This document shows positions 43,214-46,661 of a stretch of 64,000 nt of DNA, piece by piece. This stretch comes from Haloplanus rubicundus. GTDB lineage: Archaea; Halobacteriota; Halobacteria; Halobacteriales; Haloferacaceae. Both the position numbers and the translations under genes were made by a program. Within the stretch, counting starts at the first letter, position 1, and each line of letters begins with the position of its first letter. The stretch covers positions 62,001 through 126,000 of the forward strand of contig NZ_CP031149.1 in the NCBI RefSeq assembly GCF_003342675.1. The letters are read 5' to 3'. Below the pieces are notes generated by a model. The model was not told where the DNA came from and did not search any database. It was given only the letters and a program-made list of their open reading frames with translations.

Positions 43214-43671
43214 TGAGGAACTCTATTCGAGTTAGCGTGCCGCTGAGTGGCTACGCTGCTGGAAGTCTCGAAAGATTACCCATATGATTGAGTGTTTGAC
43301 AGGAATAGCTGCTTGGAAAGCAATCTGGATCAGTTTCCGCTGACCGAATCTGTCAAATTCACGCATCACAGCCCCGCTAAACCCGCTGTAGTCTCAACTT
43401 CCACCACGTTCCTTTCGATATATCACTATACAGTTTATTAACTACATCTGAATCCCTAAAGCACGGTATTTCTGCTTTAGAGCCTCTGTATCGCGCGTTT
43501 ACTGAGTTGCATTTTCGAGAGTCGAGTGAGTACTCTTACTTCGATAAGAGTACGTACTTTCAAGCAGGTGGCCGCCGTCTACCAAAGCGAATCCCATGAC
43601 TCCACCTGACATCCCAAGTATTCCCGCTCAGATAGCCCTCGAAGCACGGTTCCACGGAGGCGGTGAGTGAG
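43214..43671. other. Intergenic region with a 9-bp hairpin before the integrase
   Basis: No gene is seen. The main structure is an inverted repeat with perfect arms GTACTCTTA (43530-43538) and TAAGAGTAC (43545-43553), 110 bases before the integrase start. It could be an operator or a recombinase arm-type site. Confidence 0.45.
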
Positions 43672-44913
43672 ATGAGTTCTTCTGGCAACGGCGAGGGCCA
43701 CACGGACGGCCAGGATGATCGGCCGGTCGAGATCGCGGACGTCGTCAAGGATTACCTCACGGACAAGGGCAAAGGAGCGGAAGGAAAGAGCGGGACGTAC
43801 CGCCGGGATGCAAAACGCGAACTCGGCCGCTTTTTCACTTTCCTCGAAGATGAGCGCCCGCGTTCGCCTACGACATTCGAGGAGCTGACTATCCGGGATA
43901 TCCGCCAATACGCTCGCCATCTCGCGACACAGGATTGGACTGAAAGCACGAAGCAGAACTATTACGCCCACATTTCGGCGTTCTGCGGATGGGCGGTACG
44001 CGAGGGATATCTGGACGAGAATCCTGCGTTGAAATCACGGGCAAAAGAGCCACTTCCAGAAGACGACGGACGGAAGACCGAACGCCAACAGGCGTGGTCA
44101 CCCGAGCAGCGAACAGCACTCTTAGAGTACGTCGACGAACAGGCACACGAAGCCATCGACGAAGTGGGCGAGAACCGCTACGAGGCGATCAAAGCGTGTC
44201 GCGACCGAGCGCTCGTCTATCTCCTGTGCTTCTCGGGTGTTCGCGGCGCGGAAGTCCTGGCCGATGTCGCCGACGCCCGACGAGGTCGTGATGGGCTTCG
44301 CTGGTCGGACGTTTCCCTCGAGGACAACACAATCACCGTCCTCGGGAAGAAGGGTGAATGGAGCGATAGGGCTGTCCCACCGTCTGCGATCCCGTCACTC
44401 GAACGCCTCCGGTCAGTACTGAACCCATCGAGTGACGACTGGCCCGTGTTCACGACGCTGTCGTATCCAACCCTCGTCGAGACGTTCAAAGACGAACTCG
44501 TTGAGCAGGACTATACGCGCAAAGAGGCTGAGAGTCTGCATCGCGAGCAGGTGAACGATGGGGACGTCTCGATGATCGAACTCTGCGTCGAGTACGATGT
44601 CGACCCTCCGGCGTTGACGACCCACAGCGCACGGCGGATTTTGCAGCGACTCACAGAGGAAGCAGACATCGACTTGGATGACGACAAACACGGCTATCTT
44701 GCCCCGCACGGCGCTCGTCGGGGAGCTGGCGAAGTGATGGTTCGGGAGTTCGGGTACACGGAGGCGGCACGGCACCTGGATAACTCCGAGGAGGTTGTTC
44801 GCGAGCACTACTCACATATCGAGGCGAGTGAACGCGCTCAGATGGCTGAGACGGCGTTTCAGAATCAGCGACCTAGCCAGAAAGATGTGCCCGACCAGGA
44901 CTCCGACGGGTAG
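43672..44913 (+). CDS. Tyrosine recombinase / integrase (XerC-like)
   Basis: 413 residues from ATG 43672 (GTG 43663 is possible). An N-terminal SAM-like DNA-binding domain (TYRRDAKRELGRFFTFL, then IRQYARHLATQ) precedes the catalytic domain. Catalytic residues appear intact: Arg191 (FSGVRGAEV), Lys near 226 (VLGKKGEWS), His346-x2-Arg349 (PHGARR), His368 (ARHLDNS) and nucleophile Tyr380 (REHYSHI). It can excise, integrate or resolve dimers of the element. Its position before the ParA operon suits multimer resolution of a plasmid. A short attachment site could not be recognised. Confidence 0.88.
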   Translation: MSSSGNGEGHTDGQDDRPVEIADVVKDYLTDKGKGAEGKSGTYRRDAKRELGRFFTFLEDERPRSPTTFEELTIRDIRQYARHLATQDWTESTKQNYYAHISAFCGWAVREGYLDENPALKSRAKEPLPEDDGRKTERQQAWSPEQRTALLEYVDEQAHEAIDEVGENRYEAIKACRDRALVYLLCFSGVRGAEVLADVADARRGRDGLRWSDVSLEDNTITVLGKKGEWSDRAVPPSAIPSLERLRSVLNPSSDDWPVFTTLSYPTLVETFKDELVEQDYTRKEAESLHREQVNDGDVSMIELCVEYDVDPPALTTHSARRILQRLTEEADIDLDDDKHGYLAPHGARRGAGEVMVREFGYTEAARHLDNSEEVVREHYSHIEASERAQMAETAFQNQRPSQKDVPDQDSDG

Positions 44914-44999
44914 CACTCAGCTATCCACTGTGCCCCAGTCAGTAGCGGTCTTAATTTCCGTCATAGTAGTGCTAACATGTTGAATGTTCAAAATGTAGT

Positions 45000-45275
45000 T
45001 ACCGTGAATAATGGAAATAGTGTAACAAATAGTACTAACAGCAACAGCTTTTTTAACAGTAACATCGCTAATAACGGTACTACTGACTATAGTAGTAATA
45101 ATGGTAATACCGCATATACTGTTAAAATCGGTATTACCGTTATTATTGCCGCATTAGTATAGGCCCTACATAGGTTAAAATGCCGAATTGGAGGAATAGA
45201 AGCAGATCAATAATATTATTATTAACGGTAGTACCGTTCTGAACGGTAATCGTCTGACGAACAATTATAACGGTA
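45000..45275. repeat. AT-rich iteron-like array before parA (candidate centromere or operator)
   Basis: The AT-rich 380-base gap between integrase and parA contains ACGGTA or its complement TACCGT at least seven times: 45000, 45074, 45135, 45225, 45232, 45243 and 45270. Two copies form the palindrome AACGGTAgTACCGTT (45224-45238), another CGGTATTACCG (45129-45139). Such arrays upstream of parA usually bind the partition partner protein. A small Asn-rich open frame across this stretch is probably not coding. Confidence 0.65.
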
Positions 45276-45297
45276 TGAAATCAATTTGAGGGTAGTT

Positions 45298-46182
45298 ATG
45301 ACCGACACCTACCCAGAAGTACTCGCCATCTCGTTTCAGAAGGGTGGCACTGGCAAAACATTCACCTCGTTGAATATTGCGGGTGGTCTTGCAGCTCGCG
45401 GCTTCAACGTGCTTGCCATCGACCTTGACCCACAGGGCACTCTCACCGCAAACCTTGGGAAGCGAGACCTCTACAAAGACCTAGACGCGCTCTCACTGGA
45501 TGAAATCCTTTTAGATCCGAAAAGTTGGGATAATGTGAACGAACTCGTTCTCACCGATCACGAAGAGTTCGATCTTATCCCCAGCAACCAGACTTTCAAC
45601 GGGAACAAGACGCCTCTGGACTCGGCTGATGCCGGCGAGAACCGACTGGGGCGGCTCTTACAACGGCTTGAAGACGATTATCATTACATCGTGTGTGATT
45701 GCCCACCGGATTTCTCACCATACGCGAAAAACGCAGTCACGGCCGGTGAGAAGATTGTCGTGCCGATGGAGCCAGAGACGGAGATGCCACATTCGACGGA
45801 CCTGTTGTTCGATCAATACGAGGTTCTTGGAATGATGCACGATCTCGAGATTCAGTATCTCGCCTTCCTGATGACGGTGAACTCGACGAAGATGACCAAC
45901 GAGAACAAGCGAATTGTCGAGTGGTTCAACGAAACTTTCGACGAGAAAGGCGTCACTACTGATCATCGGGCGGCGTTCGCGAGGGCGAAAAAGAGCCAGC
46001 AGTCAATCTACGCTCACCCAGAATCGCTCCGGAACGACGAAATCGAACGATACGACGAACTCCTTCAATTGATTCTTAAGCAGACATCACCCCCCACGCT
46101 CGGATTGGATGTTGAAGCGGCAAAGGCGATGACCGTCGAAGATATTCGCGCTGCGGCGGCCGACCGGGAGGTGGAAGCATGA
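45298..46182 (+). CDS. parA: ParA partition ATPase
   Basis: 294 residues from ATG 45298. The deviant Walker A box is KGGTGKT (15-21), with the signature Lys15. Walker A' lies at VLAIDLDPQGTLT and motif B at HYIVCDCPPDFSP. These define ParA/Soj ATPases, which move plasmids by binding the nucleoid and interacting with a DNA-bound partner. The gene has 23 bases after the last repeat of the array. Its stop overlaps the start of the next gene (ATGA), the likely partner. No separate N-terminal helix-turn-helix is present. Confidence 0.9.
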   Translation: MTDTYPEVLAISFQKGGTGKTFTSLNIAGGLAARGFNVLAIDLDPQGTLTANLGKRDLYKDLDALSLDEILLDPKSWDNVNELVLTDHEEFDLIPSNQTFNGNKTPLDSADAGENRLGRLLQRLEDDYHYIVCDCPPDFSPYAKNAVTAGEKIVVPMEPETEMPHSTDLLFDQYEVLGMMHDLEIQYLAFLMTVNSTKMTNENKRIVEWFNETFDEKGVTTDHRAAFARAKKSQQSIYAHPESLRNDEIERYDELLQLILKQTSPPTLGLDVEAAKAMTVEDIRAAAADREVEA

Positions 46183-46661
46183 GTGACGATTCCTCTGAAG
46201 ACGACTTTGAGGCACAGATGAGCGATGTTTCAGAGCGGGCACAGAAACTCGGAGTCTCCGGTTCGGACCCAAGCTCGAGTTCGGGCGCTGAATCGTTGTC
46301 CGAAAATACCACGGGTGACACTGAGGAGAGAGCCGAAGTGGATTCTGATGATCCATCGGCTGCTCAGCAGGCAGTTGAACAAGAGTCACGCACGACTGGA
46401 GGACCTGATACCCACGAATACCCGAACCCAGATAGGGAGCTGGGAGCACTCACTGATGTATACAGGAATAATAACGTATTCCTCTCACCCGAGGTCGTCG
46501 ACGCCGTTGAGGGTCTCTGGGATGACATCGAGTACGAATGGAAGAAGTCTCACGATACGGAACTCAACAAGAACTGGGACTTCTACATGGCCTGCTTCCG
46601 AGTCATCTTAGACAATCCCGATCTCGTCCGTGACGAACTTGATATGGATACTGAGTCGTAG
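46179..46661 (+). CDS. Probable ParB-like partition partner
   Basis: 160 residues, translationally coupled to parA by a four-base overlap. The first 90 residues are acidic and disordered (Ser/Glu/Asp-rich). The C-terminal 70 residues form a compact domain (NNVFLSPEVVDAVEGLWDDI, then FYMACFRVILDNPDLV) that may bind DNA as a dimer. No classical ParB nuclease-like domain is present. The call as partition partner is from position alone; the array upstream of parA would be its target. Confidence 0.6.
   Translation: MSDDSSEDDFEAQMSDVSERAQKLGVSGSDPSSSSGAESLSENTTGDTEERAEVDSDDPSAAQQAVEQESRTTGGPDTHEYPNPDRELGALTDVYRNNNVFLSPEVVDAVEGLWDDIEYEWKKSHDTELNKNWDFYMACFRVILDNPDLVRDELDMDTES

Follow-up and report, generated by a model that had tools for sequence, protein, structure and literature searches.

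A putative haloarchaeal ParA-type partition locus with a phased 9-bp candidate centromere and a new family of putative centromere-binding proteins

The combination of a Type Ib-like ParA with a ribbon-helix-helix partner is typified by ParFGH of TP228 and delta-omega of pSM19035. Among archaea, SegAB of the Sulfolobales couples a ParA homologue with SegB, a small, site-specific ribbon-helix-helix protein whose sites lie upstream of the operon, and the SegB motif is given there as one 13-bp palindrome, TCTAGASTCTAGA, with copies dispersed along the chromosome (PMC12284271). On pNOB8, according to a 2016 review, AspA binds a 23-bp palindrome and spreads from an upstream site over more than 200 bp; what archaeal plasmid centromeres are is a question that the review counts among those still to be answered (PMC5120986). 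The literature covered by full-text search, with most subscription journals outside it, yielded no account that we recognised of the array described below, or of its partner protein as a DNA-binding protein.

Here we analyse a 64-kb window (C3:62001-126000) of the 147,062-base replicon C3 of Haloplanus rubicundus, whose 3.77-Mb genome comprises three contigs. We propose, with a probability of roughly 0.8, that the window contains the operon of a haloarchaeal ParA-type partition system together with its cis-acting site, the partner representing a new family of putative centromere-binding proteins and the centromere being phased at 9 bp; binding, segregation and autoregulation by the partner are predicted from sequence patterns. 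The operon comprises the following:

45298..46182, + strand: parA, coding for a Walker-type ATPase of 294 aa with a P-loop KGGTGKT at aa 15-21
46179..46661, + strand: partner gene, coding for 160 aa and joined to parA by an ATGA overlap
46461..46640, + strand: C-terminal domain of the partner (about aa 95-154), with an extended NNNVFLSPE stretch and three helices behind it, of which the first two are long and the last is short

The parA product matches PF13614 (E 5.9e-31) and phrog_164 (E 6.8e-41), and its AAA_31/ParA domain places it with the ParA/Soj ATPases; it has no N-terminal DNA-binding extension and a small partner directly behind it, the arrangement of a Type Ib-like ParABS system. 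The short ParA, the small adjoining partner gene with its flexible N-terminus, and the short repeats that lie upstream of the operon and overlap the promoter are all likenesses to ParFGH and delta-omega. Unlike those systems, the locus has a 9-bp period with a 6-bp box and a partner family without sequence match to theirs; the first helix of the C-terminal domain is 22 residues long, the domain has a motif of the K-N/H-x-x-F/Y type, and in other members of the family the array may extend into the partner gene. With SegAB it shares an archaeal ParA homologue and a small partner with sites upstream of the operon; SegB-type sites were searched for and rejected as the repeats of this locus, none being found with up to three mismatches in 44977-45297 and 7 against 14.7 expected in the window. 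It resembles the AspA-ParB-ParA system of pNOB8 as a putative archaeal plasmid partition locus whose protein would likewise cover a long stretch of DNA, but has two genes with parA first and a 9-bp array in place of the three-gene aspA-parB-parA cassette with a winged-HTH AspA and a 23-bp palindrome; no such cassette was found at the window locus. A preliminary description of this DNA had seen in the repeats the form in which an archaeal centromere is expected: the array is centromere-like, but the described forms are the 23-bp AspA and 13-bp SegB palindromes, and the word "expected" has to be dropped.

The partner is composed of an N-terminal helix, a disordered acidic linker and the C-terminal domain. 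Within the helix R20-A21 is invariant (8/8 in A3), and this helix is presumed to contact ParA, while the protein as a whole is presumed to be the centromere-binding protein. The partner matches PHROG 26668 both as a whole (E 1.7e-5) and with its C-terminal domain (E 6.5e-7), and among 40 diverse C-terminal domains 37 hit the same family (best E 9.5e-50), for which the listed function is none known. That the partner is without a known ParB fold, as proposed earlier, agrees with the absence of a meaningful family match in Pfam, NCBIfam or the PDB: no ParB-type (ParBc) family was recovered at E up to 1 in Pfam or NCBIfam with the partner, nor with sets of 9 and 40 relatives, and profile searches of the PDB with the partner family gave nothing credible. 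The structure prediction of the C-terminal domain that had been suggested resulted in a confident AF2 model (11 sequences; pLDDT 83.8, pTM 0.68), with helices at 21-42, 48-62 and 64-70 following NNNVFLSPE, and in no credible library match to its fold; the full-length model was poor (mean pLDDT 55). Foldseek searches with both models returned no credible match and no ribbon-helix-helix entry, VIA gave a best Z of 2.0 to an antiterminator and likewise no ribbon-helix-helix entry, and Pfam RHH_5 was hit weakly (E 0.1) in 2 of 40 family members. The strand of ribbon-helix-helix proteins pairs in the dimer only, and the modelled order of elements is that of a ribbon-helix-helix monomer; we therefore describe the predicted fold only as ribbon-helix-helix-like.

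The DNA in front of parA is organised as follows:

44983..45150, no strand assigned: distal array block of about 18 units of 9 bp, its outer limits set by eye, with AATGTT at 44983, AATAGT at 45028, AACAGT at 45055, AACGGT at 45073, AATGGT at 45100, ACTGTT at 45118, ATCGGT at 45127 and ACCGTT at 45136, every one of them in a single 9-bp phase
45224..45275, no strand assigned: promoter-proximal array block with AACGGT at 45224, ACCGTT at 45233, AACGGT at 45242 and AACGGT at 45269, in phase
45252..45270, + strand: predicted parA promoter, with GTCTGAC at 45252-45258, 6 nt, and TTATAA at 45265-45270

At least seven copies of ACGGTA or its complement, two of them as palindromes, had been noted here in an AT-rich stretch before parA. 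We count exactly seven ACGGTA/TACCGT sites in 44977-45297 (+ strand at 45074, 45225, 45243 and 45270; - strand at 45000, 45135 and 45232), with inverted pairs at 45224-45238 and 45232-45248, and the GC content of 44914-45297 is 36% in a window mostly above 50%. Dinucleotide shuffles of 44977-45297 contained 0.46 such sites on average and 4 at most (n=2000), and other 321-nt stretches of the window hold at most two each. Over the full 64 kb ACGGTA occurs about as often as expected (26 against 22.8), and the array is thus local. The repeat unit proved to be a different one from ACGGTA, namely a 9-bp phased box that accounts for more of the region. Autocorrelation of 44914-45297 is headed by lags 18, 9, 27 and 36, and the 9-nt periodicity of the region (0.23) is the highest in the 64 kb (next best 0.14; mean 0.017, sd 0.029). 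The unit consists of a near-palindromic 6-bp box, AMYRKT, which is its own reverse complement and here mostly reads AACGGT or ACCGTT, and a 3-bp spacer, as in AACGGT AGT ACCGTT CTG AACGGT. Eleven of 13 AMYRKT boxes fall into two phases, a result reached by none of 2000 dinucleotide shuffles in a test that joins count and phase, the shuffles being also poorer in boxes (3.15 on average). The boxes at 44983-45141 share one position modulo 9, except one at 45016, and those at 45224-45274 share another. Within this degenerate array of 9-bp period, the seven ACGGTA/TACCGT sites are the units of greatest regularity. In the proximal block the slots at 45251 (CGTCTG) and 45260 (AACAAT) are occupied by the promoter element. 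This block is nearly invariant among six aligned close relatives, that of Halarchaeum (L018) being the most divergent. Since the array is degenerate, the four-box AMYRKT pattern has no exact match in its own genome.

A small ORF at 44977..45162 (+ strand) was considered as a gene and rejected: a 1-nt insertion breaks its frame in one relative (L016), it is absent from the Halarchaeum locus, and it stays open because a 9-bp repeat is also a 3-codon repeat. Directly upstream of the array lies a tyrosine recombinase gene (window 43663-44913), and three related loci (L003-L005) have a phage-integrase-type gene in the same place.

An AT-rich, repetitive, intergenic stretch might also be an iteron or ORB-like replication origin, and in two relatives (L007, L008) orc1/cdc6 is found just behind the par operon. 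We rejected an origin at the array as very improbable, since the Orc1/Cdc6 gene of this replicon (C3:28307-29419) is about 78 kb off; in addition, the gene tables of L003-L006 and L009-L013, which are incomplete, list no orc beside the operon, and 9-bp units that recur in coding sequence with a changing motif are unlike ORBs, which are longer.

In the record of the virus phiH the start of a constitutive transcript lies 5 nt before parA, and 41 nt separate the first base of GTCTGAC from this start; by analogy, transcription of the window's parA would begin near 45293. The proximal array block overlaps the predicted promoter. GTCTGAC followed by 6 nt and a TATA-like TTTA/TTATA was found in 60 of 85 upstream regions, with 25 of 85 devoid of GTCTGAC, and in 45 of those 60 its distance to the parA start that was chosen is 41-60 nt. 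More widely, GTCTGACNNANNNTTA is present in 39 of 40 related genomes and exceeds its reversed control in 37 of 40. One of its copies in the genome of the window stands before a gene that we take to be cdrS (L142). Members of this GTCTGAC-N6-TATA promoter class (window 45252-45267; L136-L144) precede parA genes, an Era-like-looking GTPase and the presumed cdrS, and the class may mark cell-cycle genes in haloarchaea. CdrS loss is reported to alter expression of plasmid soj (parA) genes in Halobacterium salinarum (PMC7439475), and CdrS sites are described at variable distances from the transcription start, mostly -41 to -110 (PMC8406309). Compared by spacing alone, GTCTGAC was not retained as a CdrS box, its spacing to the TATA element being fixed whereas the distances of CdrS sites vary; it is just as likely that a basal factor or one particular TFB recognises it as that CdrS does. 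The second ParA of the genome (G000:C1:77881-78645; 28% identity) also has GTCTGAC and TAGCTATAC-like repeats upstream, and no partner of the 46179 family was found for it.

A profile of the partner recovered relatives in 123 of 391 Halobacteria genomes, and the family also occurs in the viruses phiCh1 and phiH, which would provide a concrete candidate centromere and binder for haloarchaea in about a third of the sampled genomes and for both viruses. In the examined loci, which are partly redundant, 117 of 129 partner matches adjoin ParA and the other 12 have no ParA found beside them; as loci were collected with ParA and partner profiles, this adjacency is measured among partner matches only. 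The sample consisted of the 30 best-ranked loci and 80 of the next 81, the one skipped being a 54-aa open frame; 86 of 116 parsed pairs were kept after dropping C-terminal domains more than 95% alike, and 84 of these had enough upstream DNA. In PLSDB the partner is encoded on eleven plasmids, including pR1SE of Halorubrum lacusprofundi (L012), and in GTDB genomes a close ParA was recovered in ten loci. The ParA search of viral_contigs gave no relative, two of three partner scans of that collection gave no useful result, and the phages collection gave none with either the window partner or that of L087. Like the window, phiCh1 (ORF46-ORF47) and phiH (gp54 and neighbours) combine a ParA with the same partner family behind a GTCTGAC promoter; their records annotate the partner as uncharacterised or as an HNH endonuclease and annotate no centromere, and in phiCh1, unlike the window, the 9-nt array is in the linker and not upstream. 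The phiH gene with the matching C-terminal domain (L174:1875-2710, annotated as HNH endonuclease) has an HNH-like segment, an extra small gene separates it from parA, and L049 contains an HNH-like stretch similar to that of phiH.

The 9-nt series leads the autocorrelation in 11 of 11 parA upstream regions of the close family (the window and ten others). Across the 84 non-redundant upstreams a 9-nt period is significant against shuffles in 52 (p<0.05; p<0.01 in 37), while lags 7, 8, 10 and 11 are significant in 4, 9, 7 and 6; some of the 32 upstreams without a significant 9-nt period have it in the linker. The array unit varies by family (examples are CAGATACNN, TCAAAGACN, CTGAAACGN, GCCGAACCG and GATAATACG), and the extended stretch of the C-terminal domain tracks it, HNVNVYLY, for instance, going with CAGATACNN and WNGRTIYLP with CTGAAACGN. 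Unit similarity correlates with that of the strand at constant helices (partial r 0.298, Mantel p 0.001) and with that of the helices at constant strand slightly more (0.375); as the helices track the unit even a little better, recognition by the strand is not isolated by this comparison.

A natural domain swap bears on the relation of the array to the partner. In Halostagnicola sp. A56 (L019) and four further loci of the same genus (L159-L162), a close ParA and the partner N-terminus are retained, and a CheW domain (PF01584, E 3.7e-14 to 5.4e-15) stands in place of the C-terminal domain:

L019:4989-7045: ParA and the fusion of the partner N-terminus with CheW

The 9-nt signal upstream of parA is lost in 5 of 5 CheW loci (-0.027 to 0.004, against 0.122 in L001 of the window's subfamily), and GTCTGAC is missing at the promoter, with one copy at -224 in L161. 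The N-terminus therefore goes with ParA, and the C-terminal domain with the array. In close relatives with the C-terminal domain, by comparison, the phased boxes before and across the operon promoter are kept. That array and C-terminal domain belong together is hence supported by comparative evidence, both by their joint loss in this swap and by a motif common to upstream region and linker (see below). In the Vibrio ParC-ParP system a ParA-like and a CheW-like protein reportedly work together, and the CheW loci suggest that in one genus the same ParA machine has been re-aimed from plasmids to chemotaxis arrays.

The partner linkers of many relatives are built of 3-residue repeats. When each linker's own synonymous codons were permuted, the 9-nt period exceeded what the protein demands in 55 of 86 loci (p<0.01 in 37). 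The linker motif fits its own upstream region better than those of unrelated loci (KS p 2.6e-11; 23 of 84 linkers passed the threshold of 6 bits, with rank p<0.05 in 9 of the 23), and in 27 of the 52 loci with a significant upstream period the linker codons are chosen to suit the motif upstream of the same locus (p<0.01 in 20). In a controlled rerun the own motif scored in 26 of 52 cases and unrelated motifs in 60 of 312 (Mann-Whitney p 1.9e-7); that the latter exceeds 5% is probably due to the likeness between units of different families. The 52 loci are related, forming 15 clusters of C-terminal domains at 50% identity and 24 at 60%, with at least one codon-tuned locus in 10 of 15 and 12 of 24, respectively. 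Judged by these codon statistics, the 9-bp array appears to run on through the partner's own gene in many relatives. In the window's subfamily it is upstream only, with none in the linker (p 0.83, 0.77 and 0.62 in L001, L016 and L018).

We are inclined, if with reserve, towards a broader proposal in which the centromere of haloarchaeal plasmids and temperate viruses is partly encoded within its binder's gene, extending from the parA promoter into the codons of the disordered linker; the DNA motif would give rise to linker repeats such as TET, SDT and SKT as a side effect, and would change in step with the DNA-binding domain into many mutually distinct specificities. If the array truly enters the linker codons, a DNA signal would here have shaped a disordered protein segment, which is unusual, and the family would offer a large supply of orthogonal specificities for partition. 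The 9-nt, 3-residue repeats are also what replication slippage would keep in coding DNA, and acidic Ser/Thr-rich linkers are common in halophiles. However, functionless slippage in AT-rich, low-complexity DNA is the least probable explanation that we considered: the window array is non-coding, its boxes are scattered but phased with a strictness that none of the 2000 shuffles above attained, its copies are degenerate rather than fresh duplicates, upstream region and linker of one locus carry the same motif, and the 9-nt period disappears with the CheW swap.

Under the partition reading, each box would take up a dimer of the C-terminal domain, and neighbouring dimers, spaced by almost a full turn of the helix, would line up as a continuous filament over the array; MetJ, omega and ParG bind their short repeats in such a filament-like, side-by-side manner. 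The N-terminal helix of the partner would stimulate the ParA ATPase via its invariant arginine, and nucleoid-bound ParA would then pull or position the plasmid. An occupied proximal block, which overlaps the TATA region, would repress the operon, and in many other family members the partner would find the array also along the disordered-linker codons of its own gene.

A search of the 3.77-Mb genome with AMCGKT-N3-AMCGKT-N3-AMCGKT, allowing at most one mismatch, found two places, both on C3, and none with the reversed control. The second of these is outside the window:

G000:C3:7736-7759 (L158): second three-box array, AACGGTAATACCGTTATGAACGGT, before the plasmid PCNA gene

The gene behind it is recognised as PCNA by PF00705 (E 4.7e-12), and the second site precedes the same PCNA gene in 3 of 3 related plasmids. 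This array, the overlap of the proximal block with the predicted promoter, and the fact that ribbon-helix-helix-like proteins are often repressors would all fit an operator by which the partner represses its own operon and the plasmid PCNA gene, the array having no role in segregation. We hold such a purely regulatory role to be rather unlikely, as the distal block, with some 18 units ahead of the promoter, and the arrays inside the partner gene of relatives exceed the needs of an operator, the partner is frequently paired with ParA, and the CheW swap keeps ParA and loses the array, as expected if the C-terminal domain recognises a DNA cargo. Autoregulation is itself compatible with segregation, and within a partition system the partner may bridge the two places on the plasmid or regulate the clamp gene. 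One of the related plasmids, from Halobellus (L172, NZ_CP134948.1 near 170,399), contains a second copy of the par locus.
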